Shown here piece after piece: positions 2,731 through 56,250 of a stretch of DNA of 64,000 bases. Within the stretch, counting starts at the first letter, position 1, and every line of letters starts with the position of its first letter. The stretch comes from Isoetes taiwanensis (taxonomy: Eukaryota; Streptophyta; Lycopodiopsida; Isoetales; Isoetaceae): assembly GCA_021234155.1 (NCBI GenBank), contig JAJEKV010000323.1, forward strand, positions 62,001 to 126,000, given 5' to 3'. A program made the translations under genes and the position numbers. The notes beneath the pieces were generated by a model. It made no database searches. It worked only from the letters and a program-made list of their open reading frames with translations, and was not told the DNA's origin.

Positions 2731-3273
2731 ATCTATCTTTTGAGCATTGAAGCAAATCATTCCTTATAAAAAACAAATGACCTTCCAAGTTTGCAAGGCA
2801 ACATCTCGACCTAAACTCATTCCAACAGAGCAGAGGTGGTTTGTCAATGGCGAAATTAAGTTCCTTTTTATCTTTAACACAGACCACGAGGTCTATGGTA
2901 ATGAAAAAAAAGGAGCAGATATAACAGGATTGCAAATTAAACGGGAGTGTTGCATCACTCCCGTTTCAAAGATTCCCTTAAAAAAAACACCAAGATTGGA
3001 AAAATGTTCATTTTCAAAAGAAGCTTGGGATTTTAAGTGGAACAAAATATTATATCATGCATTTTGGGGCCCTTTAAAATGATAATCTCGCATTTGTAGG
3101 AAAGAGCACTTGAAAATGGCAGAATTCCAGACACTAATACACCAGGAATATAACCAGGAAGTCGAAAACATCAAAAATACGTAAAAATAATTTTTTTTTT
3201 TATTAATTTCTTTCAGTACAGTAAATATGGCAGTATTTTGTAGCCAATAATAAATAATATAGCAAAAGAAAAC
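2731..3273. other. Spacer with one strong hairpin
   Basis: An open frame on the plus strand (2747-3082) has no recognisable domain and is probably fortuitous. Within it, 2939-2966 is a near-perfect hairpin: AACGGGAGTG, a short loop, then CACTCCCGTT. It has no T-tract or neighbouring gene that would make it a terminator, and might be a mini-element or a small RNA fold. Confidence 0.4.
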
Positions 3274-4792
3274 TCAGAGGTCTAAATCGAAGTCCTCAGT
3301 GTGTGGTTTGCTCGTCTCACCTTTTTCTATCTCTTCAGTTTGCTCCTTTGGCACAGTTTTATCTTTGCTGGTGTCAACAGTCTCTTCAGGAATAGTATCT
3401 AGAGCTACTTTTTTGAGCTTTGCAAAGGTAGCTTCATCTTCCAGAGAGCTTGTAAAAGGAGGCTGTATCTCAGAGGATGTCATCTTGGCAAAATCTGATG
3501 ATGATTTAGCTCCTAACTCTTGATTTTCATCTGGTAGAGTTGGTAGAGCAGACAACCTCATCTTGATGAAGTCTACAGCCTCTTTATCAATGTCAACAGC
3601 AACACAATTACGGCCCTTTTTAAGTGCACATGCTATTGTTGTACCAGAGCCAGAGAAAGCATCAAGGACCCAATCTCCTGGACGTGAGAACATATCCAGA
3701 ATATGGTTGATTAGTTTCTGTGGCTTCTGATAATGATTTACAATTCTGCCTTGTGCACTTGGGTCCTGGAGCTTCTATAATACTGCTGGGAACTCTAGGA
3801 CATTAGAAAAATTCTGGCAGGTTGCAGTGTTGAAGTGCTCCATGGTACGCTTCCCGTCGAAACTCCAGTAAGCTACATGGAGATACTCAACCTTGCTCAG
3901 CAGCCTCGGTCCTCCACCATGGTAGTTAATATTAGTTTTGTACCTGCAAGATCGTATTCCAGAATAGTAAGTACGTATTCCAAAATACACCCTGACGGGT
4001 TACAATTGCAACCATAAAAAAAAACTTGAAAGAAAGAACACATGAACGGCACTTTTGATTCTAAGACTCACCAGACCATGTTTTCATAACCGGCTTGCAC
4101 AGGGGAACCGAAGTGGTTCTTGAAAGTAGCTTCCACAAGGCCGGCCTGCATGCTTGAATGGAACACAACAAGACGCCAGTGTTTTGCTGTGGTAACCTGC
4201 TTAATTCCATCGACGAAAGCATTGAATTCTGAGTTTTTGAAAGGCTGATCGTCGTAGCGGCTATCCTTCAGCTTGAAACCATATGGCAAGTCTGCTATGA
4301 CCAATGTAAAATCTTGTGGCTTTATACTGCCTGGCAACTTAGTGCAGTCCCCATGAACGATAGAATAAAAATTATTTTGATCGAACATAGAAAACCTCTC
4401 GTAGTCGGACGGCTCAGATCTACAACGCCTGTCCGCTAGGGTCCTCTCTCTTCTCGGGCTGTTCGTACCAGGTGCATAAAACCTTGGCGGCAGGTCCTTG
4501 TTCTTCTTCTTGCTGTTAATGATTAAAGTCACTTCATGCAACACAAGCGGAAAACTTTAAAACAGGAAAACGACGTACCCAGCCCTCAAAATTTGGAGCG
4601 TATTGAATAATACGCTCGTCGGATGTAGCAATGGGATAGAGCTCTCTGCACCTCTCCCAGCTGTCCACGTTCAGCTGCTCCATCAAACACGTTTGGCACG
4701 TAATAACGTTTTTTTGGCTGGAAGTCAACGACAAGGAAACAAAATAAGACTTCGTTTCCGGAAAACGAAAACACCAAGAAGAGGAAACCAAA

Positions 4793-5038
4793 TTGTATTC
4801 CGGAATACACATTTGACTCATGTGAAAGGCCAAAAGGTATTCCGGAATACACATCCGCTTACAAGCCGAAGCAAAAGTGTATTCCGGAATACACTTTTGC
4901 TTTACGTTGGAAGCAAAAGTGTATTCCGGAATACACTTTTGCTTCGGCTTGTAAGCGGATGTGTATTCTGGAATACACTCTAGACTACTCGCAGAATCCG
5001 TAGTGTGTTCTGGATCTCTACTGTATTCTGGAATATGC
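4793..5038. repeat. Intronic palindrome array, period 42 bp (array 1)
   Basis: The 18-bp palindrome GTGTATTCCGGAATACAC or a close variant starts at 4793, 4835, 4877, 4919, 4961 and 5003 (exactly 42 bp apart), with one more at 5021. It lies in the methylase intron 4718-5085. The spacer units are themselves partly inverted (CTTTTGCTT against AAGCAAAAG). The copies at 4961 and 5021 have CTGG at the centre in place of CCGG. The same unit forms array 2 at 7335-7587. Confidence 0.92.
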
Positions 5039-6350
5039 TTAGTGCTAAGGAAAGAAACCTAAAACGAAAGTTTACATCGTTTTACCATGCGAGTTCCTTG
5101 GACATTTCTTCTAGAGTTAATTCTTTGTCTACTACCTTCTGCAGTAGCCTTTCTAGTATGTCCATATTAGTAAAGCCCTGCATTTCTCTCCACACTGTTA
5201 TCGTCATTTCTTTTTTTGGGACATCAGAACCTTTTTTCTTTTCTGAGACCTTCCTTTTACTTTTCAATTCACCACACTCGAACATGGTAAATATCTCGTT
5301 TTGTAGGTCCCATATCTGCACAGTATTAAACGAGGTCAGTCGAGGGCAAGAAAGTTATTCCAGAATACAAAAGACACTTACTCTGCCATCTCTGAAGGCT
5401 AATTGAAACCAGTTGTCATGCGGTATGAGTGACTGCCGTTTGTTAGCCTCGTCGTGCATTTGAGGCAAACACTCCTCGCAAGCAGCTTCCTTGCTCTAAA
5501 GGAGTTTGGTTTCTTCAAGTCTTCTCCATATTTTTCTTTAAAAATCATGTACTCCCCCGTGCATGAACCGGATCTTGTCGACAAAGCTCATTTTTAATTT
5601 GTATTCGTTGTCGCGATTGTGTGTGTTGGCAAGCGATTTTTTTGCTTCTTCGTCGGTGAGACCACGATGAGGCGCATTACGGGACGGAAAGATACCTGGG
5701 GTTATTTTTTTCCTTGTACAGCTGCCTTCTTGTATGATTTCCTCCCAAGACGTAGTGAGTGTAAGTGTCTGCTTTTTCTCTGTCATAGTCCTGGGGGGTG
5801 TTGCATTGCTCCCTGTCAACAAGGACAACTATTGGCGCCACATGAGCATTAGGATTGCTCCTAATTCTATCCTTCCGGGTTCCTTAAGTGGTCGGCATAT
5901 ATTTTACTGAACACAAGCGGCCTTTCACCAGCTTCATTCTTTGGAAGCAGCTTCATGCAAGTTACAGGAAGATAGATCACCCCTTGTACAAATTTTTCTG
6001 CATTTATTACCTCCATTCTTTCGGAGGTCTTATCAACTTTCTTTTCTTTTATTGCTACCCCGGGAGCTTTTCCTTTTCCCTTTTGTTTTTTTGTGCTTCC
6101 CTCGGGGATTTCAGCAACTTCAAGCTGCTGTACCTTCCGCTTCTTTGGTTCCTTAGCAGCTATAGTGTCTCTTGGCCTGCTAGGTTTCTTTGGCGGCACT
6201 GGGGGCTCTTCCTCTTCGAAATCTTGGTACCCTCCATCTGATGACCCCCCGGAATTACTAGGAGAAGGTGATGATCCTCCATCTGACTGCTCTGACTCAC
6301 TGACAGGAAAATCTTCGCTGGTACTAGTACAAACCTGTCTAATTAGTGAA

Positions 6351-6671
6351 GGGTAAAAGCATGTTAGGGTGTACCACTTTTGGAACCTGCAAAAGTACAT
6401 ACACTAGGTACTTCAGAACTGGGTACTTTCTCATTTTTATTTTCATTAAAACTAGTACAAAAGTCCAAAATAAAAGTCAAGGACGCATTAATATTCAAAG
6501 TTAAGATAAAGATAATGCTACTGGAGACCAAAATATATATAAAAGTTCTAGAGTGTACCTATTATTGAGATATTACACAAGTACCCAGTACCCAGTCCTG
6601 GGTACCTTTTTAGGTACTTTTTTGGTCACTAAATAATACTTTTTAAGGGACACCCTAACATGCTTTTACCC
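6351..6671. mobile_element. MITE, 321 bp, 4-bp TSD (copy 1)
   Basis: Terminal inverted repeats begin GGGTAAAAGCATGTTAGGG and end with the reverse complement. The target duplication is TGAA (6347-6350 and 6672-6675). The inside is AT-rich and non-coding, with repeated GGTAC motifs. A second copy in the opposite orientation is at 49311-49632. A 4-bp TSD of variable sequence fits superfamilies such as Sola, Ginger or Academ, but I cannot choose among them. This copy sits inside a coding exon of the methylase gene. Removing it and one TSD leaves the reading frame continuous. Confidence 0.93.
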
Positions 6672-7334
6672 TGAAGACAAGCTGCGTTTAGTCCGGTAGT
6701 GTGAAAAGAAATTGTACAGTGTTTGTGGTTGCACACTGACAATTCTAAAGAAGGCGATGTCAACAACAATGAACCCTTGGAAGGTCTTGAAGGATAGCCT
6801 CCCCATCTGACCTCCTTGTCCGGCTACCTCTGAGACCTCTTTAATTGTCCCAAGGTTGACAAACTCTGTGTCGGCGTACCTTTTGCTTCCAGCACTTTTA
6901 CAGACGTACAGAAATGTCAATGTGCTGTACTTTCCGTCTGCACCCCTGGTAATGAACCACTGCGTTTGAAAGTTTTCATAAATGGTAGGCTCCTCCGTGT
7001 CACCAGTGCGCTTTTGAGGGTGTGGACGCTTAATCTTCAAAGTCTTTTTTGTTGCCCTTTTGCTGCCTTCTTCCCTGTTACTGAAACATTGCAGACAACA
7101 ATGTTAAGACAGAAAATGAGACGAAAGCTATATTCCAGAATAGGATTTACTAATCATGTGCCCTAAAGGCTAGCAAAAGACAACAAAAAAAACACAAATA
7201 TTGTCTTTTTAACACAATTTTTCATGCCCTTAATGGGTAAATATGTGGAGTGTTCAAACTAAAAATTGGTCTGTTACAGCTAAAAAGTGGTGTTCAAGTG
7301 CAAAAAAACTAGTGTTTTCAAGAAGATAAGCAAA

Positions 7335-7587
7335 GTGTATTCCGGAATACACTTTGCCCTTCTGCCAGAAGGGCAAAGTGTATTCTGGAATACACTTTGC
7401 CCTTCGGCCGAAGGGCAATGTGTATTCCGGAATACACTTTCAATGTGTATTCCGGAATACACTTTGCTCTTCTCCTGAAGGGCAAAGTGTATTCCGGAAT
7501 ACACTTTGAACTTCGGCAGTGATCAAAGTGTATTCCAGAATACACTTTGCACTTCGTCAGAAGCTCAAAGTGTATTCTGGAATACAC
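7335..7587. repeat. Palindrome array, period about 42 bp (array 2)
   Basis: Seven copies of GTGTATTCCGGAATACAC or its variants start at 7335, 7378, 7420, 7445, 7487, 7528 and 7570. The spacing is 41-43 bp except for one 25-bp interval. Spacers contain a second inverted repeat, for example GCCCTTCTGCCAGAAGGGC and GCCCTTCGGCCGAAGGGC, giving nested palindromes. The array is in the first predicted intron of the methylase gene, 0.4-0.7 kb upstream of the divergent transposase-like gene. Variants at the centre are CTGG (7378, 7570) or CCAG (7528). Confidence 0.93.
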
Positions 7588-7651
7588 TTTGGCTTACAAA
7601 AGCAAAACATTAAACACACGAAAGACGTACTATGTACTTTAATTGCTTACC

Positions 7652-7993
7652 TGTCCATTATTTTCGCTATGTGAATCAGAATACAGCAAATCAATATAGA
7701 TCGGAAGGCGCTTGGGCTGGCGACTAAATCTCTGGAAGCGGAATACGCAACTGAGGCGCTGAATTTTCCTTTTTAAAGGTAGGCCACTGTCAGTTGCATT
7801 TTTCTATGTAATGCGGAATACGTCTTGTTTAAACACTCTGGCCAAGTGTATTCTGGAATAGCATCTGTGCACACAAACAGCAAACGCTGCACAAAAATTA
7901 GTATTCCGGAATAGCATTTGTATTCTCTAGTATCTTTAGTCCAATCGACTTGTGAGTTAGTAACAAGTCCACAATTTTTTGCAGTTGTTCAAC
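7652..7993. promoter_or_regulatory. Divergent intergenic region with palindrome half-copies
   Basis: This region separates the 5' end of the methylase gene (a probable exon ending at the donor near 7650) from the plus-strand gene starting at 7994. It holds truncated copies of the palindrome at 7846-7861 and 7901-7914, both continuing as GGAATAGCAT, and looser GCGGAATACG sequences near 7740 and 7813. A polypyrimidine-CAG acceptor-like site at 7973-7984 suggests a 5' untranslated exon for the plus-strand gene. A shared promoter role is inferred from layout; no TATA box stands out. Confidence 0.4.
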
Positions 7994-10900
7994 ATGGTTA
8001 ACCGCTTCGTGAACAAACTTCCACCACCATTTGTTTGCCCAAGTACCTCTACTTCAGATGGAACACAAGACGGAGATGCTTCTTCAACACCTACCTCGAC
8101 AAGGTCTTTGTTGCGTCTCGAAGACACTCCGAGTCCAGTAACTAGTAGACTGCCACCACCTTTCCAACCCTCTCCAAGTCCAGTAGGAAACCGGTTGCCA
8201 CCACCTTTCCAGCTCTCACCTGTTGCACGTAGCAATCTTCCACCACCATTTGTACCATCCCCCGACACTACAAATTCTCGACCTCAGAAAATAGTTCGAA
8301 ACAGACTACCTCAGCCGTTTGTAGTTTCTCCATCTTCACTTACACAAACAAGGAATACAGTACGTTCCGAAGACTGTGAGATTCACCACAGCTTCTCCCA
8401 CCACGATTTCACAACAAATGAAGACGACATTGCAACATTTACTCCTCTTCACACAACCGTAGTGACACATGGTTTTTTGCAGAATTTCAGTCTGCTATAA
8501 GAGACATGTTTGATCGAACTCCTTGTGAAGAAGCTACAACAACTTTCGCTGGCACATCATATGGTGGCCCATCTCCTTCATTCAACACTGCACCTCCGCC
8601 TTATCCGGGTACAGCTTCACGTGGTTTGTTCTCCTCTACAAGCACACCACTAAGGGTAGAGGAGGTCACCCCCAGAGTAGAACTCTCTTCAGAAGATGAA
8701 GACACCAACGAAGTGCAACGAGATTACACATTCTCTAGCCAATCCACCAAGAAATTCAAGGTGGATTTTAGTTTGAGAGCATGCTCCTCTGTAAGAAGAA
8801 GAAACCTTATGGACGAGCACAAAATGAGAAAACTTTTAAGAAGTAAATGGTGCTCATTGGGTTGCATCAACAAATTTAACATGGCTAAATTACGAGCAAT
8901 TAGAGACAACTACAGTTCAATGACATTGGCTGACCAGAATGCCTATTTGGCCTATCATGTACGACCAGACCGCAACACCTTCTTGCACTACATTAAGCGT
9001 CAAGAAGTTTGCCAGAAATGCTTCATGGTTGTCCACCGTTTAGGGTCCACCAGAATGTCTAGAATACATAAAAGACTGGACAAAAATCCAGCAATTGATG
9101 ATCATTGTGGACCAAGAAGAGTTGTAACCATGCATGCCCTTGCTGCTGTGTCATGGATGAAGAAATATTTTAGAGAAACATGTGAGAAGCTTCCTAATAG
9201 TAACATGTATCATTTAACTGATAACATCACCAAAAAAGATGTTTTTAATGAGTACAAAGAGACTTGCACTCAGCTTCAGCACATCTCTTACTCACACTTC
9301 ACCAGACTGTGGAAAAGTGAATTCGGTTTAGTGAAAATTCCCAGGAGACATAGAATGTCTGTTTGCTCAAGGTGTGCAGAATTAAAGAGTCAAAGAGAAA
9401 CTGCAAAGACAGAGGTCGAAAGAAGTAAGCTCATGTTCTCCAATCTCTCACTTGTTTTAAAGATAATGCTTTGACCTCATTTCTTCTACAGATATTGTGC
9501 AACAGAACCTTGCCAGACATCGTGAACAACAAGCAGCAGAGAGAAGAAAGCTTGCCAAACACAGAAAAAAAGCTCTTGAACGTCCACTGCAATATATGTC
9601 TGTTGTGATTGATGGAATGGACCAAAAAAAACTACTCTACCGCATTTCTTGAACATTCCTAAAGATGTGCCAGAGGAATGTTTTGTTAAGGTCCACCTTG
9701 TAGGAGCTATGGTCTTCAAAGGAAGTCTAAAGTGCAAAGTATTCTTGACGTATCCAAACTTGCATGGTGATCCGAACCTCACAATTACAATTCTTAACAA
9801 GGTCCTGTGCGAGCAAGAGCAATTACCACCAGTGCTTTACCTGCAACTTGACAATACTGCAAGGGAGAACAAGAACCAAACACTCTTTGCGTATTGTGCC
9901 ATGTTAGTGGAGCTAGGGATCTTTAGAAAAGTGAAGCTGGGTTTCTTACTTGTAGGCCACACTCATGATCAAATTGACCAAATGTTCAGTAGATTTTTCA
10001 GGCGCCTCTCGGAAGGAAGAAGGCTTTCTCTCTTCCTACTTTAGTTGAATTATTGAAGATTCTTACACTCCCACTCCGGTGATCGATCTTCTTAAAAGAG
10101 ACCGCTGATTTCGAGAGAGTTTATTTTCTCTCAACGTTCGCACGAGAGAACAAAGCTGTGAACAAATTGAATGATCTCACCTTTCAACATCACATCAAGT
10201 TCTACTTGAAGGATGGCCAGAGTTTCTTACAGGGCAAGAAGTATACCACAACTAAGGACTGGAGTCCACCAGAGGGATTACGCAGACACTTCCTTCGTAG
10301 AACGTGCTGAGCAACTTCCTCTCAAAAATCCTAAGGAGTCCAAGCAGAAGAAAAGTACCCCAGAGTCATCCTTAAAAGCCATTGAAAATGGAATTTCCTC
10401 AGGCTTTAAGTACTTCTTAGAAGAAGATCGGATGTGGTGGAGTAACTTCTTTCTCGAACAAAAAATTGTTGTGAAAAATATAGCTCTAAGACAGTTGCAA
10501 GAACCATTTCAATGGCCTAACACCTTCCATCAACCCCAGCACCAAACAGGTCCAAGCAATGCTACGTTAGCACCTGCAGTAGAAGAAGACGAGGATCGAG
10601 TCATGTACCTCGGACCAAGACGCAGGAATGAGCCTCAAGGTAATATCACAGAAATTACTAAGGGTATGCTAATTGCTCTTCCAACTGAGGAGGATGACAA
10701 AGGTCGACCTTTCGGATAGCAAAAAGTGCTTGACACGGGTCAAGGAGGAAGGCTTAGTCACTAAACTCAAGATTCATTGGCTTGCAACACATTTCGCTCA
10801 GAAAATGTTTTTGAAGGTAGATATGAGTTAGAAATGAGAAGCCAAGGAAAAGGGAGAAAGTCCAAGAAGGTGGGTTGTAGGGATGAGCTGATCCTTAATG

Positions 10901-11177
10901 ACGTGACTATATTATGCTATGATTTTAAATTGAAATCTGACAATCGTCTACACGCCAGAGGACTATCAATTTGCTTAAAAAAGCTTGTAATTACGAAGAA
11001 GAGGATGAAGAAGGTGGTGGCAATGCTTCACCATCTGTTGATAGTGATGAGGAAGATAACTCAAGCACTTCCTCTAGTGATAGTGAAAGAAGTGAAGGTG
11101 ATGAGGATGGCATAAATGAACAAGATGACGTCCTGGATCCCTCTCTCATCACTCCTCACACTTTTGTACATAACTGA
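7994..11177 (+). pseudogene. DUF7869-like transposase gene (element 1), degenerate
   Basis: First ATG at 7994. Exon 1 (7994-8359) encodes five LPPPF/LPQPF repeats in a Ser/Thr/Pro-rich tail. Exon 2 (8491-9424; donors GTACGT and GTAAGC, acceptors TTTCAG and CTACAG) carries FTRLWKSEF, then a CSRC zinc-ribbon-like pair. Exon 3 (from 9492) has VVIDGMDQ, LQLDNTARENKNQ and GHTHDQIDQMF. These spaced Asp-bearing motifs resemble the domain Pfam names DUF7869 and suggest an RNase H-like, DDE-type catalytic core; that assignment is my recognition, not a search. An acidic Ser/Asp/Glu-rich tail ends at 11177. Frame breaks: an A8 run at 9624-9631 (nine A would restore frame), near 10000, near 10275 and near 10720. 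A homologous gene is on the minus strand at 59.4-62.3 kb. Confidence 0.7.
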
Positions 11178-12639
11178 GTCTTAGAAAAGATCAGAATTTT
11201 GCATGTGAATATGAAGATTCTATCTTCAAATTTTGAGAATACTACAGTTTCAGTTACGGACTTACTTCAATTTTTTGTTAAATATTTTATCCTCTTAAAT
11301 TAGAGATTCTCTCGTAAAATATACTTCAAGAACATTCTATTTGCTAAGAAAAGTGACACTTTGAAAATGTCAATTCTTTCGTTGCACAAAAAAATTAGTC
11401 ATTTTGGGGGGGGGGTCAAAATAGAATTTCATGCATCTTTTTTTTTTTTAACCTAGTTTTACCCCCTTTTGTAAAAAAAAGGGGAATCTTTGAGGAATAT
11501 TCCTTTCGCTCTCGTTTCGATGATTTGCTCCCGTTTAATACGCAATCCTGTTATATACCTATGGAGATGAGAAATGATAGACCACAAATTTACTCTAGAA
11601 AAAATCCATGCATAGTTCGCCTGTTCCATGCAACATCATATACAAACTCCAGATCATACTCCAATGAAGGACATCATGCAGGACTACGGTCTCAAAATTG
11701 TGAAAAGCATATGGTGTTAAATAAGATTTTGAATGGTTATCGAGCTGTATTGGTAGATATTTTCGTATGTTGCTGATGGTGGATGGGCTAGTTTGACCCA
11801 AAGAGATGCCTTTACGAAAGTTGCTTTTTTAGTTGTTAGAAAAATGTCACATGGAGATGCTAAAAAAGATAACACGGCCAATTGCTATTTAGATATTTTC
11901 ATTTTGGTGACGTGGTATATTCTATTTTAAGTATTTTGATTTAGGTTAAGTGTAACAGGGGCGGCATGATGGCGACATGGTTCTCTGACTGATGCGGATG
12001 TTGGGTCTTTGCGAGATGGTCCGTTGGCTTTTTTTTTTGCAGAGACGAAGCCAATCAAAGGGAGCGTTAGTGATGCAAGCATAAAGCGAATGCCAGAAAA
12101 AATGTTAAAATGGCGTCAGCAAGCACGTCATAAATATTTTAACTAAATAGATTGTTCTTCGGGCAGAAGATGAATATTGGATAAAAAATGTGGCTAAATA
12201 ATTCCCTCTCCACTGAAAGAGGAATTGAATCGGATTGGATTGGATTGAATTGAACTGATTTGAATAAAGGAGTTAGTAGCAAGAATGGCACATTTGATTT
12301 GAGGTTTTTATGTCTGAAAGATAACACACTACTTGACCTATTGTTTCTATGGTAATATAGTTTTTACTTTCTTCAAGAAAAACATATATTTTTACAAATG
12401 ACGTCCGTCAAAAAATAAAAACTATAAAAGACCATACCTATAGTGGCTTGATAACGGTTAATAGTTTAATTTAGTAGTTTTAATGTCATACCACATTGCC
12501 AGCATCCCCCTAGGACATATGACGACTCATACTCAGACACACACTATATATGATGAGACTCGCACTCACCCGCTTCATTCCCAGCACACACCACCCGTGA
12601 TGAGACTTGCACTCATCCACTTCTCCACCTGATGGTAAT
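11178..12639. other. AT-rich spacer downstream of element 1
   Basis: Contains a G10 run near 11405, a T12 run, and a CCCCCTTTT/AAAAAAAGGGG inverted pair at about 11463-11487. Short frames (11525-11776 and others) have no recognisable content. I looked for an inverted match to the left side of the methylase gene that would mark the end of a composite element and did not find a convincing one. Confidence 0.45.
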
Positions 12640-13172: not shown

Positions 13173-13739
13173 TCAGTAATTGCAGACGTTTATATCTAGA
13201 ACCTCAAGTATGTATAATGCCAAGTCATGCACAGATAGTGCTCTGAGAAGTTGTGGGAGCGTGGAATGGAATGCTAAGGTCAAAAAATGATTCCGGACTA
13301 TCTCAAAAGCAGGGCAACTCAGAAGAGTATGGCTTTCATCTTCACTAACCTGTAACTGGCAACAGGCACATAGTCTCGCTTCTCGCGGCAATTGCGGCCG
13401 CTCCCATCTACATGTCTCAATCCGTAGCCTGTGGGACCCCGTGCGAATTGATGCAATAGCTACAAGCTTGTTCCTGGACAATGAAGCAAGCAAATAAGCT
13501 TGGGGCCCTGGTGCCAAGGTGGGATTTATGTGTGCATGATAATGACCAGTTTTCACTTAGGCCAAAGTAACTACGTCCCATATCTTTTGAGAAAAACGAC
13601 CATTGAGATATTGTTGCAAAAGCTCAGGATCAGAATTGGCAAGCATCAGGCAGTGCTCTGGTTGCACAGCCCAACGGGCAAACCATGTAGTGCAATGCTC
13701 TTTCCAACATCGTTTCAAACACTGAGGAGATTCAGCCAT
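13173..13739 (-). pseudogene. LINE ORF2 C-terminal remnant
   Basis: Two frames (13739-13557 and 13556-13173) are contiguous in the same reading frame, interrupted by a single stop at 13557-13559. The upstream part has LKRCWKEHCTTWFARWA and LMLANSDPELLQQYLNG. The downstream part has RLRIETCRWERP, then CACCQLQVSEDESHTLLSCP. The RL.IE..RW and C..C...EDE.H.L..CP pattern is the zinc-knuckle tail of plant LINE ORF2, after the reverse transcriptase. No endonuclease or RT is attached, so it is truncated at the 5' side, as is typical of LINE copies. Confidence 0.75.
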
Positions 13740-17524: not shown

Positions 17525-19537
17525 CTAGTTAAGGTGCCCAGCGTTGCTGGGCATAGCTAAGAACTGTGAATGATATACTGGAACCTTTTCCTTTTGCCTT
17601 TGTCTACTATTTTTTTTTTTCTATTTTCCCTTTGCCCTTTTTCCTTTTTTACATTTTTCAATTTACCTTTTTCATTTTCCATTATTCCATTTCCCCTATT
17701 TCCCTTTTCTGTTTTCTGCTTTTCCATTTTCCCCTTCCCTTTTCTCCAATTTGTGGTGCCCTTTTTTCCTTTCCCTGTGCCCTTTCCCCCTCTCTTTTCC
17801 AATTTCCCTCTTCCCCTTTTCCTTGTGCCCTTTTTTCAGTTTTTCTTTCCCCTTTCCTTTCCCTTTTCCCTTTCCTTCTCCCAACCTTTTCTTTTTTCCC
17901 CTTTTTTCTTCCCTTTTCCTCCTTTGCCCAGCCCTTCCGTCTTCCCTTTTTTCTAGTGTCCTTTTTCTTTCCTTTCCCCCCTCCTTTTTTCTTTTCCATC
18001 TTTCTTTTTCCCCTTTTGCATGTCCATTTTTCCTTTAGTTTTTCCCCCTTCCTCACCCTTTCCCTCTTCCTTTTTTGCCATGTCCCTTTTCTCTTCTATT
18101 TTTTCATGCTTTTTGTTTTTCGCTCCTCTTTTCCCCTTTCTTCACCTTTTCCCTCCTTCCCCTCCTTTTCCTTCTCTTTTTCTTTTTCTATTTTGCTCTT
18201 CCTTTTTTGTCCACCTCCCCTTTCTATTTTCGCATTTTACCTCCCTTTTTTCCCTTTTGCCTTTTTCCATTTGCGTTTTGCATCTTTTTCACGTTTGCCT
18301 TTTCCATTTTCCCCTTCCTTGTTTTTCCCTTTTTCTATCTCCCTCTTCCCCTTTTTCCCCTCCCATTTTCACATTCCCTTTTTGTTTTTACTATATTTTA
18401 TTTTCCTTTTCTCCCATTCCACCCCCTTGGCTTCCCTTTCCCCTTTTCCCTTTTCCTTTTCCTTTTTCTTTCTTTTTTACCAATGGCCTTTTTCCCTTCC
18501 CTTTTCCTCCTCTCCCGATCCTTTCTCCCTTCTGCTTTTATTCATGCCCTTTTTTCCTTCAATTTCCCTCTCTTCCGCCTCCTTTTTCTTTCCTTTTTCC
18601 CTTTCTTTTTCTCATGACTTTTTTCCCTTCCCTTTATTTCTCTTTCCCCTTTTACAAAGCCATTTCTTCCTTCCCTTTGCCCACCCTTTCCCTCTTCCCT
18701 TTTTCTCGTAGTCTTTTTCTTTCTCTTTCCTCCGTCCTTTGTTCTTTTCTTTTTCCTTTTCCCCTTTCCTCCCTCCTTTCTCTCTTCCTTTTTTCTGCTT
18801 CTCTCCTTCTTTTCTCTTCCTCTTTTCCCCATGCCATTTTTCCCTTTTGCCCCTCCCCTCCCCCTTTTCCCTTCCCTTTTACTCCTGTCCTCACCCTTTC
18901 CCTCTTCTTCTTTTTGTACTGTCCCTTTTTCCTTTCTTTTCTCCCTTTCTTTTCCTTTCTCTTTTTCGTGCGTTTTTCCATTTCCTTTTCCCTTTTACTC
19001 GTGCCTTTTTTATCTCCACTTTGCCCTTTTCTCCTCCCTTTTTCTCCTTTCTCCACCTTTTTCCTCTTCCCCTTTCCCAGTGTTCCTTTTCGCTCCCTAC
19101 TCCTCCCCCTTTCTTTTTCCCTTTTTTTTTCCTTTTTCTTTCCTTTTCCCTTTTCCTTTTCCCTTCCCTCCTCTCTACCCTTTTCCTCACCCCCTTTTCA
19201 ACTTCCCTTTTACTCCTATCCTCATCCTTTCCATCTTCTCCTTTTTGTAGTGACCTTTTTTTCTTTATTTTCCCTTCCCTTTTTCGTGCACTTTTCCCTT
19301 TCCTTTTTCCCTTTCTTTCTTTCCCTTTTACTCGTGCCTTTTTGCCTTCCACTTTGCCTTTTTCTCCCCCCTTTTCCTTTTCCTTTTCTCTTTCCTCTTC
19401 AGACATTAGAGCATGGCCAATCATGGTGGTGGGAAGTCGTGTGATAAATCTCGGTCTTCGGATACAATTAGATGATCTCAACCATCCAAATTAGGGTTTT
19501 TTCTTCATGACATACGCTAAAACTTTATAATATAAGA
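17525..19537 (-). mobile_element. Non-autonomous Helitron, about 2.0 kb, filled with polypyrimidine DNA
   Basis: On the minus strand it starts at 19537 with TCTTATATTATAAAG after an A, and ends at 17525 with a hairpin (stem TGCCCAGC/GCTGGGCA at 17535-17553 plus), then ACCTTAA, then CTAG before T. TC at the 5' end, a 3' hairpin, CTRR and insertion between A and T are the accepted Helitron hallmarks. There is no Rep/helicase gene. About 1.8 kb of the interior (17590-19400) is nearly all C and T on the plus strand, in loose units such as CCCTTTTTCCTTTCC. Long Phe/Pro/Ser-rich frames there are artefacts of that composition. Confidence 0.85.
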
Positions 19538-32240: not shown

Positions 32241-35200
32241 AAAATCACAAATCCGCACCTTGCAACTAAGCCCTGGGTATAATTATTAAGCATCTAAAAA
32301 GCTTGAACAGACATAGCAAAATGCTCTGGTTAGCCATGGTGCCTTCTGCGCCCAATCATCTGAATGAAATAGAAAAAGGAGAGACGTTAACGGAAAAATG
32401 ACCAAAATATTTCTTGCCATAAAAAATAGAGAGATGTACCACTCAAATTGAAACGCACTGCTCAGATTGTTGAAACTCAAATTTAGAAGAAAAAGCCTGG
32501 AACTTGAAGCTATGCTTGCGGAAACTTCACCTTCTAACATCCTCATACTCAAATCCATAGCTTACAACTCCATCGCTGTCAATGTTCATATCTGCAGATC
32601 CTCCATTCCATACCCATAAACCGAAAATGGCTACAACGACACCCCAAAACGAAGCTCACAAAGAAGAAAAATGACGAATCCCTCAGTGGTACGAATTTCT
32701 CACAGAAAAAATCAGGCCCGCATTCATGAGTATGGTCACAGTTAGTAGCTGCAGCTACAATTAAGTGTCAAGAAAATGAAGCAAAATGTCAGCACTTTGA
32801 TTCTTCATAATATATGCCTGAGAAGGCTCTTTTTAACTGCCATGCTCTTATCAGAGAAAGCTTGTTGAGAATTCCCCCCAGCTGGTATTTTATGAAAATA
32901 TTTCACCTCTAAGCTTCTTTTCTTCACATACTTGATTTTTGTTCTGATTTTGTGCTTCTTGTGCTTTTTTGAGCTTGTGCACACAGGGTCAAACATCAGT
33001 GATTGTGGAAATAAGCTTCTGAATTGGAATGCATCCACCTATATCTGTGCAACCGGACTGGTGTCACTTGTAAGAATGGCAGCCTCAAGGTTGAACGGCT
33101 TGAATTAAATGGCTTGCAGCTGGGATTGGGAAGCTAACAAATCTTACAACTCAAAGGGCAAACTTTGCTTCAAATTTTACAAAATATATAGAAGAAAGGA
33201 AGCTTACAGCATCCAGCAGCAAAACACTGCAATTATCACCAGTGTAATATGCAACCTGCATAAAAGTAATTTAAAATTAGGAAGGAAACTGAAGCTAAAA
33301 TTTGTAGAACATAGCAATTTAAAGCAATCATGCCAATCAGTAATCGCATACCATGGCTGACCTACAGGGGAGAGACAATGCTTAATTCAGAAAAATATAA
33401 TGAATTTTACAATCTCAAATATTTCGCTAAGAGTACCTTTCTTGCCCTCGTGAATATCTCAAGAATTTAAGAAACTTTACATTCCATTTGCTGAGTAACA
33501 CCTATATCTTACCTTATTAACAATGTGTCTACGGCCAAATGTAAAAATGAGTTAAGGTGTTCAATGAACATAGTCCCATTCTTTGCTAGAGTTATGGAAA
33601 GAGGGGGACTGCCAAATTAACTGGCAAAAGATAACTGGAGGTGTGCAGAGAAGTTTAGAAATAGATTTTCCACAAGATTTCCATCAGAATAATCATGATT
33701 GGCATATATGCAGATGCAGAATGGAGATCCAAAAGGAGTCAAGCAGCATCCAGCAGACCCTTACTGAGAACTCTCCTCTAAAATCATAAACAGGTTCGAT
33801 TGCTTGCTGGATCTTTCACAACGGTGGTGAAGCAGCATCCAGCAGACTCTTACTAAAAACTCTTATACAGTATACAACATTAATGCTGGAACTCTTTAAA
33901 AATGTCTGAAAACTCTTATAAAAACCTTGTATACAACAGCATGGATAGATCGTACAAAAAGAAGGAGTACTGGAACGTACCTGGAAAAATCTTGCCAGTG
34001 CAAAGCCTGCCTTACTTGGTGAGTAAAACGTAGGAGCCTAATGACATGAAGAATAAAACTTAATCAGATCTTCAAGATAGCAATGCGGCTTCTGTACTTT
34101 CTACCTTGAGAGCCAGAGATTTGTTTTCGAGAAGAGCCAGAGATTTGCTTTCCAGAAGCTCGAAATCCTGTCAAAATCTTGAAATATAACAGCATTGCAA
34201 TTGACTTTGGTAAGAAAAGCTTAGGATTCTTGGTGTCGTGCTAAGTTTCTTGGTGTCTTGCTGACCTATGATGATGCCGCCCAGCTGAAGAGCTCCACAG
34301 TTCCAGTGATGATCTGAACAAACGCAAGAGCCGGAGGCGCCAAACCGAGATTCGTAAGAAGAGAGCTGGTCCAAATTTCGTAGAAAGAAAGGGTTTTGAA
34401 AATTCGTCGTCATTGAATAGGGTCGGCTACGGCAACTTCAAAATATGAATTTAATGCTGGAAACCAAGATGCCGGGAGGGGGAACGCATGCGGGAAGGGA
34501 ACGCCACATGCGTCTACACTGCGGGGTTTCAGGCACGAAGTCCAACACCTTACCAAAATAAAAAAGAAGATTTGGAGTGAACCTCCTATTATTTTTGAGT
34601 AGCGCTCCTTGCCTTGAGGTGTCTTGGGGCGAAAGCATGTTGTAGTGGAACACCCTGGGTGTCCCCCCTGTCCCCCCCTAAAAATGTGGTGGGAGATATC
34701 AAATTTGTGGTGCGATTTTAAATGTTTGTTTGGCTCTTAGTGCATGTACTGCCCGGATTCAATCATTTCTTGAACTGCAACAACCCGATTCCCACGCCAC
34801 CCGTCCCATTCCAATTTCCTACGCCACCCGTCCCATTCCAATCTCCACCTAACCGATTCCTAAACCCACGACCCACCCGCGCCTTTCCTGAAGCACACGG
34901 CTATGGCGCTTAATCCGGTTGTGGATCAATCCGGTTCATACTTTGAATCATTTAATTTGGAAGCAAATCTGCCTAAAATCCCAAACCGGAGCACAGGTAA
35001 GAGAAAGAGAACTCCAGAACAAGAACGTGATCATAAAAGATGCCAAAGGAAAAGAAAAAGGGAAGCTAAAGAAGAAGTAGCAAAAGTTGCATCAGCAGAG
35101 GGAGGATCCACCAGAACGGCCTCTACTAGGCGTCGGATGGTGTTGAAATTATTATCTTCATTTCATAGCACCACTAAAGGCTTGGCTGACAGTGATAAGA

Positions 35201-35807
35201 AAGAGGTTTTACGAGATTTTCTGGAAGATGACACAATGGACAGCGTACTTGGTGAAGAGCTGAAAGATTTGCAAGCCAAGAGCATTGTGGTCAGCAACCT
35301 CATGGCTTCCATTCCACTTGTGAAGAAGTCTAACAGCAATGACAGTTTAGCAGCCAAGAGTAGTTGCCTTGCTATGGCCGTAAAAGGAAGCATTAATACC
35401 GAAAGTGCTAATCCTGTCAGTGCTCGGGGTTTTGGTAAACTGCTGGGTGTTCATCCTAGGAATCTTACCAAAGCAAAATTGAAGAGGGAAGAGATAGATT
35501 GCAAAGGGGGGAAATGGGTTTTGTACAAAAGAGTTAGAAGAGCAGATGCAATTCCCAATTCTGTCATAGAACTTGTGCAGCAATTTTGGACCGAAAACAG
35601 TAGGGTCTCTCCAAATGCAAAGGATGTTAAGTTCAGAAGATTGGAACGAAATGTAAGAGAGGATCATGCCACTCACTATCTGGAAGAATCACAGGTTATT
35701 TCATTTCTTCATCTTCACCACATTTTTTATTGTTAATGTGGTATGTGGTTAGTGATTGCTTGTGATATGTGGTTGGTGTGGTTAGTGATTGCTCGTGGTG
35801 TGTGGTG
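31880..35807. repeat. 3.93-kb tandem duplication, unit A
   Basis: Direct duplicate of 35808-39739 (offset 3928 bp at the left edge). The left border falls within the first five bases of the kinase HADPHPGN exon, the right border in the intron of the plus-strand transposase-like gene. The junction has only about 2 bp (CC) of shared sequence. Identity is very high with scattered small indels. Confidence 0.95.
34903..35694 (+). pseudogene. First exon of a transposase-like gene, duplicated copy A
   Basis: ATG at 34903. It encodes MALNPVVDQSGSYFES, a basic region (GKRKRTPEQERDHKRCQRKR) that is probably a nuclear localisation signal and short coiled coil, then SARGFGKLLGVHPRNLTKAK, and ends at LEESQ with donor CAG/GTTATT. 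The frame is intact but downstream exons are absent: the duplication ends in the intron at 35807. The only exon 2 (40414 onward) follows copy B. Long-range splicing from copy A over copy B is conceivable but unproven. Confidence 0.7.
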
Positions 35808-38800: not shown

Positions 38801-39739
38801 TAAACCCACGACCCAGCCGTGCCTTTCCTGAAGCACACGGCTATGACGCTTAATCCAGTTGTGGATCAATCCGGTTCATACTTTGAATCATTTAATTTGG
38901 AAGCAAATCTGCCTAAAATCTCAAACCGGAGCACAGGTAAGAGAAAGAGAACTCCAGAACAAGAACGAGATCATAAAAGACGCCAAAGGAAAAGAAAAAG
39001 GGAAGCTAAAGAAGAAGTAGCAAAAGTTGCATCAGCAGAGGGAAACGGCCTCTACTAGGCGTCGGATGGTGTTGAAATTATTATCTTCATTTCATAGCAC
39101 CACTAAAGGCTTGGCTGACAGTGATAAGAAAGAGGTTTTACGAGATTTTCTGGAAGATGACACAATGGACAGCGTACTTGGTGAAGAGCTGAAAGATTTG
39201 CAAGCCAAGAGCATCGTGGTCAGCAACCTCAGGGCTTCCATTCAACTTCTGAAGAAGTCTAACAGCAATGACAGTTTAGTAGACAAGAGTAGTTGCCTTG
39301 CTATGGCCGTTAGAGGAAGCATTAATACCGAAAGTGCTAATCCTGTCAGTGCTCGGGGTTTTGGTAAACTGCTGGGTGTTCATCCTAGGAATCTTACCAA
39401 AGCAAAATTGAAGAGGGAAGAGATAGGCGCAAAGGGGAAATGGGTTTTGTACAAAAGAGTTAGAAGAGCAGATGCAATTCCCAATTACGTCATAGAACTT
39501 GTGCGACAATTTTGGACCCAAAACAAAGAGGGTCTCTCAAATGCAAAGGATGTTAAGTTCGGAAGATTGGAACGAAATGTAAGAGAGGATCATGCCACTC
39601 ACTATCTGGAAGAATCACAGGTTATTTTATTTCTTCATCTTCACCACATTTTTTATTGTTAATGTGGTATGTGGTATGTGGTTAGTGATTGCTTGTGATA
39701 TGTGGTTGGTGTGGTTAGTGATTGCTCGTGGTGTGTGGT
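35808..39739. repeat. 3.93-kb tandem duplication, unit B
   Basis: Second copy of 31880-35807. It starts with the last intron bases and first five exon bases of the kinase HADPHPGN exon, and ends where unit A ended, after which the unduplicated transposase intron continues. Differences from unit A include an 11-nt deletion near 39042 and an insertion near 37045. Confidence 0.95.
35889..36150 (-). pseudogene. Duplicated ABC1-kinase exons without HADPHPGN exon
   Basis: This repeats the LHLVQ-encoding small exon (with a Glu to Ala change: KLEEAKDLHLVQ) and the EWIE exon of the kinase on the minus strand. The HADPHPGN exon is lost apart from its first bases because the duplication border cuts it, so these exons lead into unrelated sequence. 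Confidence 0.8.
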
Positions 39740-49253: not shown

Positions 49254-49660
49254 CCTGTTTATATATATCTAAAGTGCCCCCTAAAATGAGCGAGCGATCT
49301 CATCCCAGGGGGGTAAAAGCATGTTAGGGTGTCCCTTAAAAAGTATTATTTAGTGACTAAAAAGGTACCTAAAAAGGTAGCCAGGACTGGGTACTGGGTA
49401 CCTGTATAATATCTCAATATAAGGTATGTTTTAGAACTTTTTATATATATATTGATCTCCGATAGCATTATCTTTATCTTAACTTTGAATATTACCATGT
49501 CCTTGACTTTTATTTTGGATTTTTATATTAGTTTTAATGAAAAGAAAAATGAGAAAGTACCCAGTTCAGAAGTACCTAGTGTATGTACTTTTGCAGGTTC
49601 CAAAAGTGGTACACCCTAACATGCTTTTACCCAGGGGGCACTTTAGATACAATAAACAGG
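49254..49660. mobile_element. Small palindromic element containing a nested MITE
   Basis: Arms at 49254-49282 and 49633-49660 are inverted repeats (outer CCTGTTTAT, inner TATCTAAAGTGCCCCCT). Without the MITE the whole is only about 85 bp. The MITE entered next to the right arm and duplicated AGGG. The outer CCTGTTTAT matches the complement of the ATAAACAGG end found in several repeats in this window. Confidence 0.8.
49311..49632. mobile_element. MITE, 322 bp, 4-bp TSD (copy 2)
   Basis: Same element as 6351-6671 but inverted: its left end continues TCCCTTAAAAAGTATTATTT, which is the complement of copy 1's right end. The TSD is AGGG at 49307-49310 and 49633-49636. Divergence between copies is modest (scattered substitutions and a few indels), so the family was active fairly recently. 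Confidence 0.93.
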
Positions 49661-55011: not shown

Positions 55012-56250
55012 TGGTGTTGTTAGAACCCCAAGTATTATGGACATGTCTTTGTCTTTGTCGAGGCATGAATATAGTGAAGGTGTTTTTCTAAATTCATTGG
55101 GCATTTCAAGATGAAATAATTTCTAATGCAGAGAGATAATTATTCCCCTCGCCATATAGATTGTGGGTGTATAGGGGAAGGGATTATATGTGTATGCCTG
55201 CAATTCTGATGACAATCTTTTTGGGACGATTGGCTTTTTAGTTGAATGGTATGGGTCCTTTAAGAGATTCTACAAAACTATGGGAAGAGAAACGTGGAAA
55301 AGACATGGGGTGCGTAGTCAAGGTGTTTATTTTAATTTACAAAGCGACGTAACAAAAATACACAAAACAATAACTGGAAGCCAATTTCATCCTCCACCTG
55401 CTTTGAAGCTGGCCGCTGGGTTAGATGGGTTCTTTCCTTCTCTAGATAAGTTCAATTCTAATATTATAAAACCCTAGCAAGGGTTTAACCAATACGAAAA
55501 GACAAGTGGACATGTAGTTTTCAAATAGCTTGCCATGTACTAGTAAAAGGTGCAAGAATGCGATTAAAGAACTATACATCCTAATCCAATAGCTAATGCC
55601 AACATATTTTCAACACATTGTGTGTGTGCACGTGTTGATTTAGTGATAAGGGAAGGTAGTGTCAAAAGTATTGGCAGTGTTCAGTGTTCAAACTTGAAAA
55701 TTCTTTCAAGTCGTTAAACTTAGTGTGCTTTTTATGGTTCTAAGACGTCATACGAATGTGCCATGGATATAGCCACATGATTCTTAACACTACAGTTAGC
55801 CAAAATACATATGTCACCAATGTTTAAACTATAACAAATTCCTACGAAAAGAAAAAGGGATGCAAGATGCTTCTTTTGCCATAATGTTTTGAATATGTTA
55901 GCCATATATAGTATCATGTCGCTAAAAAATTAATCCTCAGATAGACATTCAATCCACATCCAGGACCTATGTTAAAGGAGATTATGTTGATGGGAACAAT
56001 AATATCACATAGATTATCATCATGCCCTTTTGGAGGGAATTGTTTGCCTTAAATCGCTTCTTCGCCTTAAAGCCCTCGAATTTTTCTTTTGTCGAAAAGC
56101 CCCTTTTGTAAATCCCCTGTTCTGTTGCATTCTTGATCAATTCCATTCAATTTTCTGTCTTTTTGTTTCCCAGATGCATTCTTAACATTAAACAAGATTA
56201 TTCGGGAGGTTTGGAGACAGTTAGTTTGGCTGAATCGACCGGATCTTGGC
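55012..56250. other. AT-rich spacer
   Basis: A plus-strand frame at 55190-55477 (with FGTIGFLVEWYGSFKRFYKT and HPPPALKLAAGLDGFFPSLD) is protein-like, but isolated, without neighbours or recognisable domain. The rest shows no feature. Confidence 0.35.

Follow-up and report, generated by a model that had tools for sequence, protein, structure and literature searches.

Do the DNA methyltransferase gene and the transposase-like gene that stand head to head in Isoetes taiwanensis belong to one mobile element, and what is the role of the palindrome that is repeated around them? We analyzed this locus within a 64,000-nt stretch of contig JAJEKV010000323.1 (referred to here as the window; all coordinates are window positions). 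The best explanation, to which we assign a probability of roughly 0.5, is a dead cut-and-paste DNA transposon of ~8.6 kb, which encodes a DUF7869 transposase and, divergently, a ParB-like/methylase accessory protein that would recognize the element's own palindrome. The analysis directly established terminal repeats, two divergent genes with their domains, and a palindrome that is both enriched and confined. Introns and plant relatives point to plant nuclear DNA.

An earlier note on this DNA had proposed that the two genes form one mobile unit but had found no terminal repeats enclosing them. Such repeats are present: a 29-nt terminal inverted repeat (2919-2947/11528-11556; 27 of 29 positions paired) encloses both the methylase and the DUF7869 genes. 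With the arrays masked, it was the best inverted pair in the first 16 kb among those separated by at least 1 kb, with a score of 23 compared with a best score of 17 among 100 first-order Markov controls. The repeat word had two matches in the window (0 expected), only at the two element ends. Inward of the terminal repeats, a second block (CAAAGATTCCC) is common to both sides. ATAT, a candidate 4-bp target-site duplication, flanks the element at both outer borders; this tetranucleotide is self-reverse-complementary and is possibly part of the inverted repeat instead. Because the terminal repeats enclose both genes and ATAT lies at both outer ends, we infer that the genes form one mobile unit, although a single copy with ends is known. 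A 14-nt hairpin (93%) lies directly inward of the left terminal repeat (2939-2966); no counterpart of at least 12 nt was found at the matching place of the right end.

The methylase domain, of a bacterial or phage type, was identified on the minus strand, where the open reading frame (ORF) at 3274-3774 matched PF01555 (N6_N4_Mtase; E = 5e-17; 63 bits; curated cut-off, 26.7), and the intron-containing methylase gene described in the earlier note is thereby confirmed. In beta-class amino-methyltransferases, motif IV ([DNS]PP[YFW]) precedes motif I (FxGxG). The window methylase agrees with this order, with motif I (FSGSGTT) in the last exon and motif IV (ADLPYG) in the exon upstream; the latter reads DLPY, as in two of the seven phage methylases compared. 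A query with the methylase retrieved two relatives from the protein database among 1,811 candidates, P0001 and P0002 (EukProt names Gb_37443 and Gb_17912, a prefix that we take to denote Ginkgo biloba), which are 88%-identical Ginkgo-type paralogues, one of them shorter. The Ginkgo-type relative also matched RsrI, MboII, and CcrM in the PDB (E values of 2e-6 to 5e-6).

The gene extends further upstream than had first been described. On the minus strand, P0001 matched the window in order, with residues 118-155 at 5811-5710, 170-366 at 5669-5001, 293-436 at 4514-4116, and 465-613 at 3885-3454. Residues 293-366 were matched twice, and the second match extends 85 nt beyond the exon end placed here. 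Since P0001 is a single protein that matches both stretches in order, the upstream stretch (5811-5001) and the methylase probably constitute a single gene that encoded one fusion protein. What looks like the stop of the upstream stretch shares bases with a GTAAAA donor, and removal of 5085-4718 keeps the phase. When the upstream stretch was used as a query, the only relative among the best 7,999 candidates (those sharing the most words) was P0004 from Adiantum capillus-veneris (GOP47_0012334; E = 2.9e-33), which as annotated comprises the upstream half only. Within the coding remains at 5382-6349, significant protein matches were obtained only from 5874 downward. As to a restriction-modification system, the Pfam matches of nine element ORFs, which cover part of the coding sequence, included no endonuclease family.

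The divergent partner gene also stands as previously noted: on the plus strand, the ORF at 9613-10044 matched PF25273 (DUF7869; E = 1.4e-41; 142.7 bits; cut-off, 26). The transposase query retrieved one relative, P0003 (76% identity over 46% of the query), among the best 8,000 candidates (again those sharing the most words), and this relative has an open frame of 559 residues. The copy in the window is dead: an in-frame TAG interrupts the methylase, both genes are frameshifted, and a miniature inverted-repeat transposable element (MITE) has inserted. Copies of this MITE are ~322 bp long, with inverted ends AGGGTAAAAGCATGTTAGGGTGTACC and candidate short target duplications of 4 to 5 bp.

The putative catalytic acids of the transposase (IDGMDQ, QLDN, and HTHDQID) are compatible with a DDD enzyme (candidate triad D..D..HTH[DE]xxD). 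They recur as HDKMDQ, QLDN, and HTHEDVD in a second DUF7869 gene fragment (61287-60271, minus strand), a distant relative with 25 to 46% identity. No match to P0001 or P0004 was detected near this fragment, and P0002 had one chance-level match (E = 9.7) at 56140; a seed search around the fragment yielded no inverted pair longer than 12 nt. The fragment belongs to another DUF7869 family, and its bearing on whether one gene occurs without the other is limited accordingly.

The element is possibly Sola-like, a superfamily assignment that is no more than a lead. Sola elements have 4-bp target duplications, terminal inverted repeats of 11 bp or more, and sizes of mostly 2 to 9 kb (PMC10741241); the duplications made by Sola2 follow AWWT, with ATAT among them (PMC3627910). 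The present element (8.63 kb; terminal inverted repeat, ~25 nt) lies within these size and repeat criteria, which are not specific to Sola. The ATAT at both ends is a 4-bp AT-rich sequence, a value reported for Sola2; it is palindromic and comes from a single copy.

The palindrome GTATTCCGGAATAC had 19 matches with up to two mismatches, compared with 0.07 expected. Its core, TATTC[CT][GA]GAATA, occurs at 18 sites in the 64 kb; every one of them falls within 3955-7913 and outside the predicted exons. The palindromes seen in the earlier note were borne out and are far above chance; the location was not purely intergenic: 8 of the 18 cores lie in well-supported introns inside the stretch spanned by P0001 (one in 4071-3944, six in 5085-4718, and one in 5381-5316). 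The remaining 10 (7131 to 7913) comprise 2 in the promoter and 8 in a first intron (7650-7081) whose prediction is weak; these 8 are intronic only if the predicted 8-nt first exon is correct and are otherwise upstream of the gene. Within the two arrays (A and B; Table 1), 9 of the 11 steps between cores are 41 to 43 bp (i.e., about four helical turns). The spacers are themselves inverted repeats. The arrays consist of 42-bp units, and their inverted copies reach 66 nt at 98% identity. Six scattered cores (3955, 5024, 5356, 7131, 7849, and 7902), and likewise the core at 4838 in array A, have symmetric arms of only 7 to 9 bp. The retention of the word by the six scattered cores despite such short arms suggests that the word itself is recognized.

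The cores comprise CCGG (9), CTGG (5), and CCAG (4) variants. All nine one-mismatch sites differ by a change of CpG to TpG or CpA, and none occurs elsewhere in the 64 kb. Five two-mismatch sites were found, at 3383 (exonic), 3976, and 7809 within the element and at 13289 and 14431 outside it. The CpG variants are what would be expected from deamination of methylated CpG, although the arrays copy themselves and the events are not independent. The observed/expected CpG ratio of the element (0.59) is no lower than that outside (0.50), so the element taken as a whole does not stand out in CpG decay. A search for the palindrome (GTGTATTCCGGAATACAC) in viral contigs gave 0 matches, and an Rfam scan of the window gave 0 families.

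The earlier note had called the element undescribed, which is too strong. In the brown alga Ectocarpus, the DNA transposon Sola1-1_Ec32 likewise carries a gene for a protein with a ParB-like part and an N4/N6-methyltransferase that is transcribed opposite to the transposase (PMC12477816). According to the available part of that report, similar ParB-like/methylase proteins are known from transposons of green and red algae, and their proposed role is to bind and modify their own sequence. The methylase domain in the window, inside the terminal repeats and on the strand opposite to the transposase, fits this accessory layout. Sola1-1_Ec32 differs in being 21.5 kb long and brown algal, and no target palindromes are mentioned in the accessible text; the two elements were compared by description. 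More distantly, viral Mariner elements are DNA transposons that encode a DNA methyltransferase besides the transposase, but they are Mariner elements of algal viruses with other methylase families and an endonuclease as an extra (PMC3627910, as partly available). DIRS and DNMT-carrying retrotransposons are also mobile elements with their own DNA methylases; they differ in being retrotransposons with Dam-like or C5 enzymes, and the accessible part of the source mentions no ParB-like half (PMC5890265).

Similar fusions are found in phages. The methylases of prophiT49-1 (L008), Elener (L009), and RogerDodger (L010) all (3 of 3) have an N6_N4_Mtase C-terminal half and resemble, at the N-terminus, a phage protein annotated as ParB-like. 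Unlike the window gene, these are phage genes; Pfam ParB_N was detected only in the first of them (23.0 bits versus a cut-off of 26.3), and the plant half was not significantly similar to them by hidden Markov model (HMM). In bacteria, the transposon IS10 is reportedly controlled by adenine methylation, but by a host enzyme. In a literature search that covered mainly titles and abstracts (subscription papers and preprints were outside its scope), no land-plant case of a transposon with a ParB-like/methylase gene was found, and DUF7869 was not named.

On the basis of this layout, the fused product would consist of a ParB-like half and a beta-class N6-adenine or N4-cytosine DNA methyltransferase. 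The product, or its ParB-like half, would recognize TATTCCGGAATA in its own introns, in the upstream region, and in the shared promoter, and would methylate DNA at these sites; the mark or the bound protein may then tune expression of both genes or counter host silencing. In favor of this explanation, all 18 cores are confined to 3955-7913 and avoid the predicted exons, ParB/methylase proteins have been described in print as transposon accessories (PMC12477816), and there are phage methylases annotated with a ParB-like start. The upstream half lies N-terminal to the methylase and carries YVLGGNHT (compare EVLAGNHT in phage ParB-like proteins); this position and the GNHT motif fit a ParB-like domain, with weak scores. 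After the motif, the plant half has LAxxHN where the phage proteins have ADN. The ParB identity is weak, and we keep it as a candidate because the architecture and the literature favor it. A more far-reaching version, in which a land-plant (probably vascular-plant) transposon has a self-contained writer of N6-methyladenine (6mA) or N4-methylcytosine (4mC) together with cognate sites, and the ParB-like/methylase protein binds and methylates the arrays to counter silencing or sense copy number, is a tentative possibility.

Several observations weigh against this explanation, some of them concerning the ParB-like half. A tblastn search of 50,697 phage records (E ≤ 10) returned two records from a single phage, both annotated as ParB-like with E values of about 1, and that annotated protein itself has no Pfam match. 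The hhalign score against ParB was 23.5 (maximum of 18.4 in 40 column shuffles), with a probability of only 4.9. With hmmsearch, the window piece scored 0.1 bits, and 17 of the 660 reported shuffles (1,000 run) were as high; the P0004 piece scored -2.4 bits, which 180 of 682 reported shuffles (1,000 run) reached, and a search of the P0001 piece for ParB reported nothing. Together with searches of family libraries, these tests leave the ParB identity unproven. In addition, the Ginkgo-type proteins have degenerate forms of motif IV (DIPH and DISQ), ordinary host cytosine methylation could explain why all core variants are at CpG, and the one known copy of the element is dead. The first intron, which would hold array B, is weakly predicted from splice signals alone, and our confidence is lowered for this reason.

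The alternatives concern mainly the arrays, and they are not all mutually exclusive, either with one another or with the accessory-methylase explanation. The copying pattern itself raises the prospect that the arrays are functionless, the palindrome having been expanded by slippage and fold-back copying in unselected noncoding DNA: 42-bp units with long, nearly identical inverted copies are typical of local copying, and introns tolerate DNA of the array type. We consider this somewhat unlikely, as isolated cores without the flanking unit occur in two further introns and the promoter, and no core with up to one mismatch occurs elsewhere in the 64 kb. Similarly, the inverted-repeat spacers would suit arrays that act as RNA, with transcribed hairpins giving rise to small RNAs that silence or tune the element. 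Minus-strand RNAs of array A (4718-5085; -170.8 kcal/mol; z = -18.7; equaled by 0 of 100 shuffles) and array B (7320-7600; -186.3 kcal/mol; z = -24.8; 0 of 200) do fold far better than shuffled sequences. The 7 cores of 18 with short arms, 6 of them outside the arrays, form no long local stems alone, and two cores precede every exon predicted for the gene; we regard an RNA function as unlikely.

In other families, transposases are known to bind repeated motifs inside the element, and the palindromes could be transposase sites for regulation or synapsis, with the methylase as an unrelated passenger. The transposase promoter holds two cores, and array B would be common to both genes if it is upstream. 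However, cores (up to one mismatch) are absent from the outermost 1.0 kb of the left side and 3.6 kb of the right side, where end binding would be expected, and at least 8 of the 18 cores are in introns of the other gene, leaving this proposal quite improbable. That a host methylase gene adjoins an unrelated transposon by chance appears very unlikely. A single copy is known, and the Ginkgo-type and Adiantum relatives were obtained as proteins without their genomic surroundings, which leaves some room for coincidence; against it, the best inverted pair described above encloses exactly these two genes, and the Ginkgo-type paralogues, with one shorter than the other, look element-like.

Table 1. 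Coordinates of the element and its parts in the window, with the basis of each assignment.
Positions	Strand	Feature	Basis
2919..2922	.	ATAT, candidate 4-bp target-site duplication, left copy	Direct reading
2923..2947	+	Left terminal inverted repeat AACAGGATTGCAAATTAAACGGGAG	Inverted-pair search, 27/29 over 2919-2947/11528-11556
2967..2977	+	Inner repeat block CAAAGATTCCC, left	Sequence comparison of both ends
3274..3943	-	Last methylase exon, FSGSGTT, PF01555, in-frame TAG 3777-3775	Pfam and translation; start placed by inspection
3944..4071	-	Intron with palindrome core 3955 and two-mismatch site 3976	GT..AG by inspection
4072..4511	-	Methylase exon with motif IV (ADLPYG)	P0001 match 4514-4116, E = 6.5e-17
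4579..4717	-	Methylase exon	Frame and splice sites
4718..5085	-	Predicted intron with palindrome array A (cores 4796, 4838, 4880, 4922, 4964, 5024)	Splice in phase; fold z = -18.7
5086..5315	-	Exon, 3' end of ParB-like half	P0001 match and phase
5316..5381	-	Intron with palindrome core 5356	GTAAGT..CAG by inspection
5382..6349	-	Coding remains of ParB-like half, YVLGGNHT, frameshifted	P0004 matches 5874-5731 and 5669-5211, E = 2e-26
6350..6672	.	MITE inserted in gene, 323 bp, 26-nt inverted ends (96%)	Second copy 49311-49632, 92% identical
6673..7080	-	Predicted exon 2; frame open, no significant protein match	Open frame and splice prediction
7081..7650	-	Array B (cores 7131, 7338, 7381, 7423, 7448, 7490, 7531, 7573) in a predicted first intron or else in the upstream region	CAG/GTAAGC donor, TTTCAG acceptor, weak
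7651..7658	-	Predicted first exon ATGGACAG, 8 nt, weak	Splice sites and phase only
7659..7993	.	Promoter region between the divergent genes; cores 7849, 7902	Core positions and predicted first exon
7994..11177	+	Transposase-like gene (DUF7869) with several frameshifts; intron 9424-9490	Pfam; P0003 matches, 58-93% identity
11482..11492	-	Inner repeat block CAAAGATTCCC, right	Sequence comparison of both ends
11528..11552	-	Right terminal inverted repeat	Inverted-pair search
11553..11556	.	ATAT, candidate target-site duplication, right copy	Direct reading

Searches of phage and viral sequences pointed to no close phage source, because every tblastn match of the methylase (1,102 of 50,697 phage records at E ≤ 0.01) was below 60% identity; those listed were at 24 to 28%. 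In viral contigs, methylase matches were confirmed in 2 of 305 stretches with P0001 (one a 564-residue ORF and one partial) and in 1 of 97 with alignment A2. No transposase relative (0 of 2 stretches) and no ParB-like half (0 of 1) was confirmed in these contigs. In genome contigs, the methylase alignment gave 0 of 66 stretches, with search patterns lacking motif I. P0001 matched 51 PADLOC families, of which the 25 listed were all methylases, and no PADLOC family was matched by P0003 or P0004.

Elsewhere in the window, a strand-biased tract of ~1.8 kb (17584-19400; 90.5% C+T) yields long low-complexity reading frames. Two tandem duplications were also present: 31877-35414/35805-39343 (~3.93 kb apart; 96 to 99% identical in sampled stretches) and the shorter 28036-29148/29285-30401 (~1.25 kb apart; 99 to 100% identical in sampled stretches). 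The reading frames at 34864-35736 and 39021-39662, inside the former, had no Pfam match above the cut-off.

The reality of enzymatic 6mA or 4mC in land-plant DNA is disputed. An amino-methylase encoded by the transposon itself, together with TATTCCGGAATA as a candidate target, makes this question directly testable. The element also provides a concrete candidate site for the "bind and modify own sequence" role that the available text proposes for the algal ParB-like/methylase proteins (PMC12477816).

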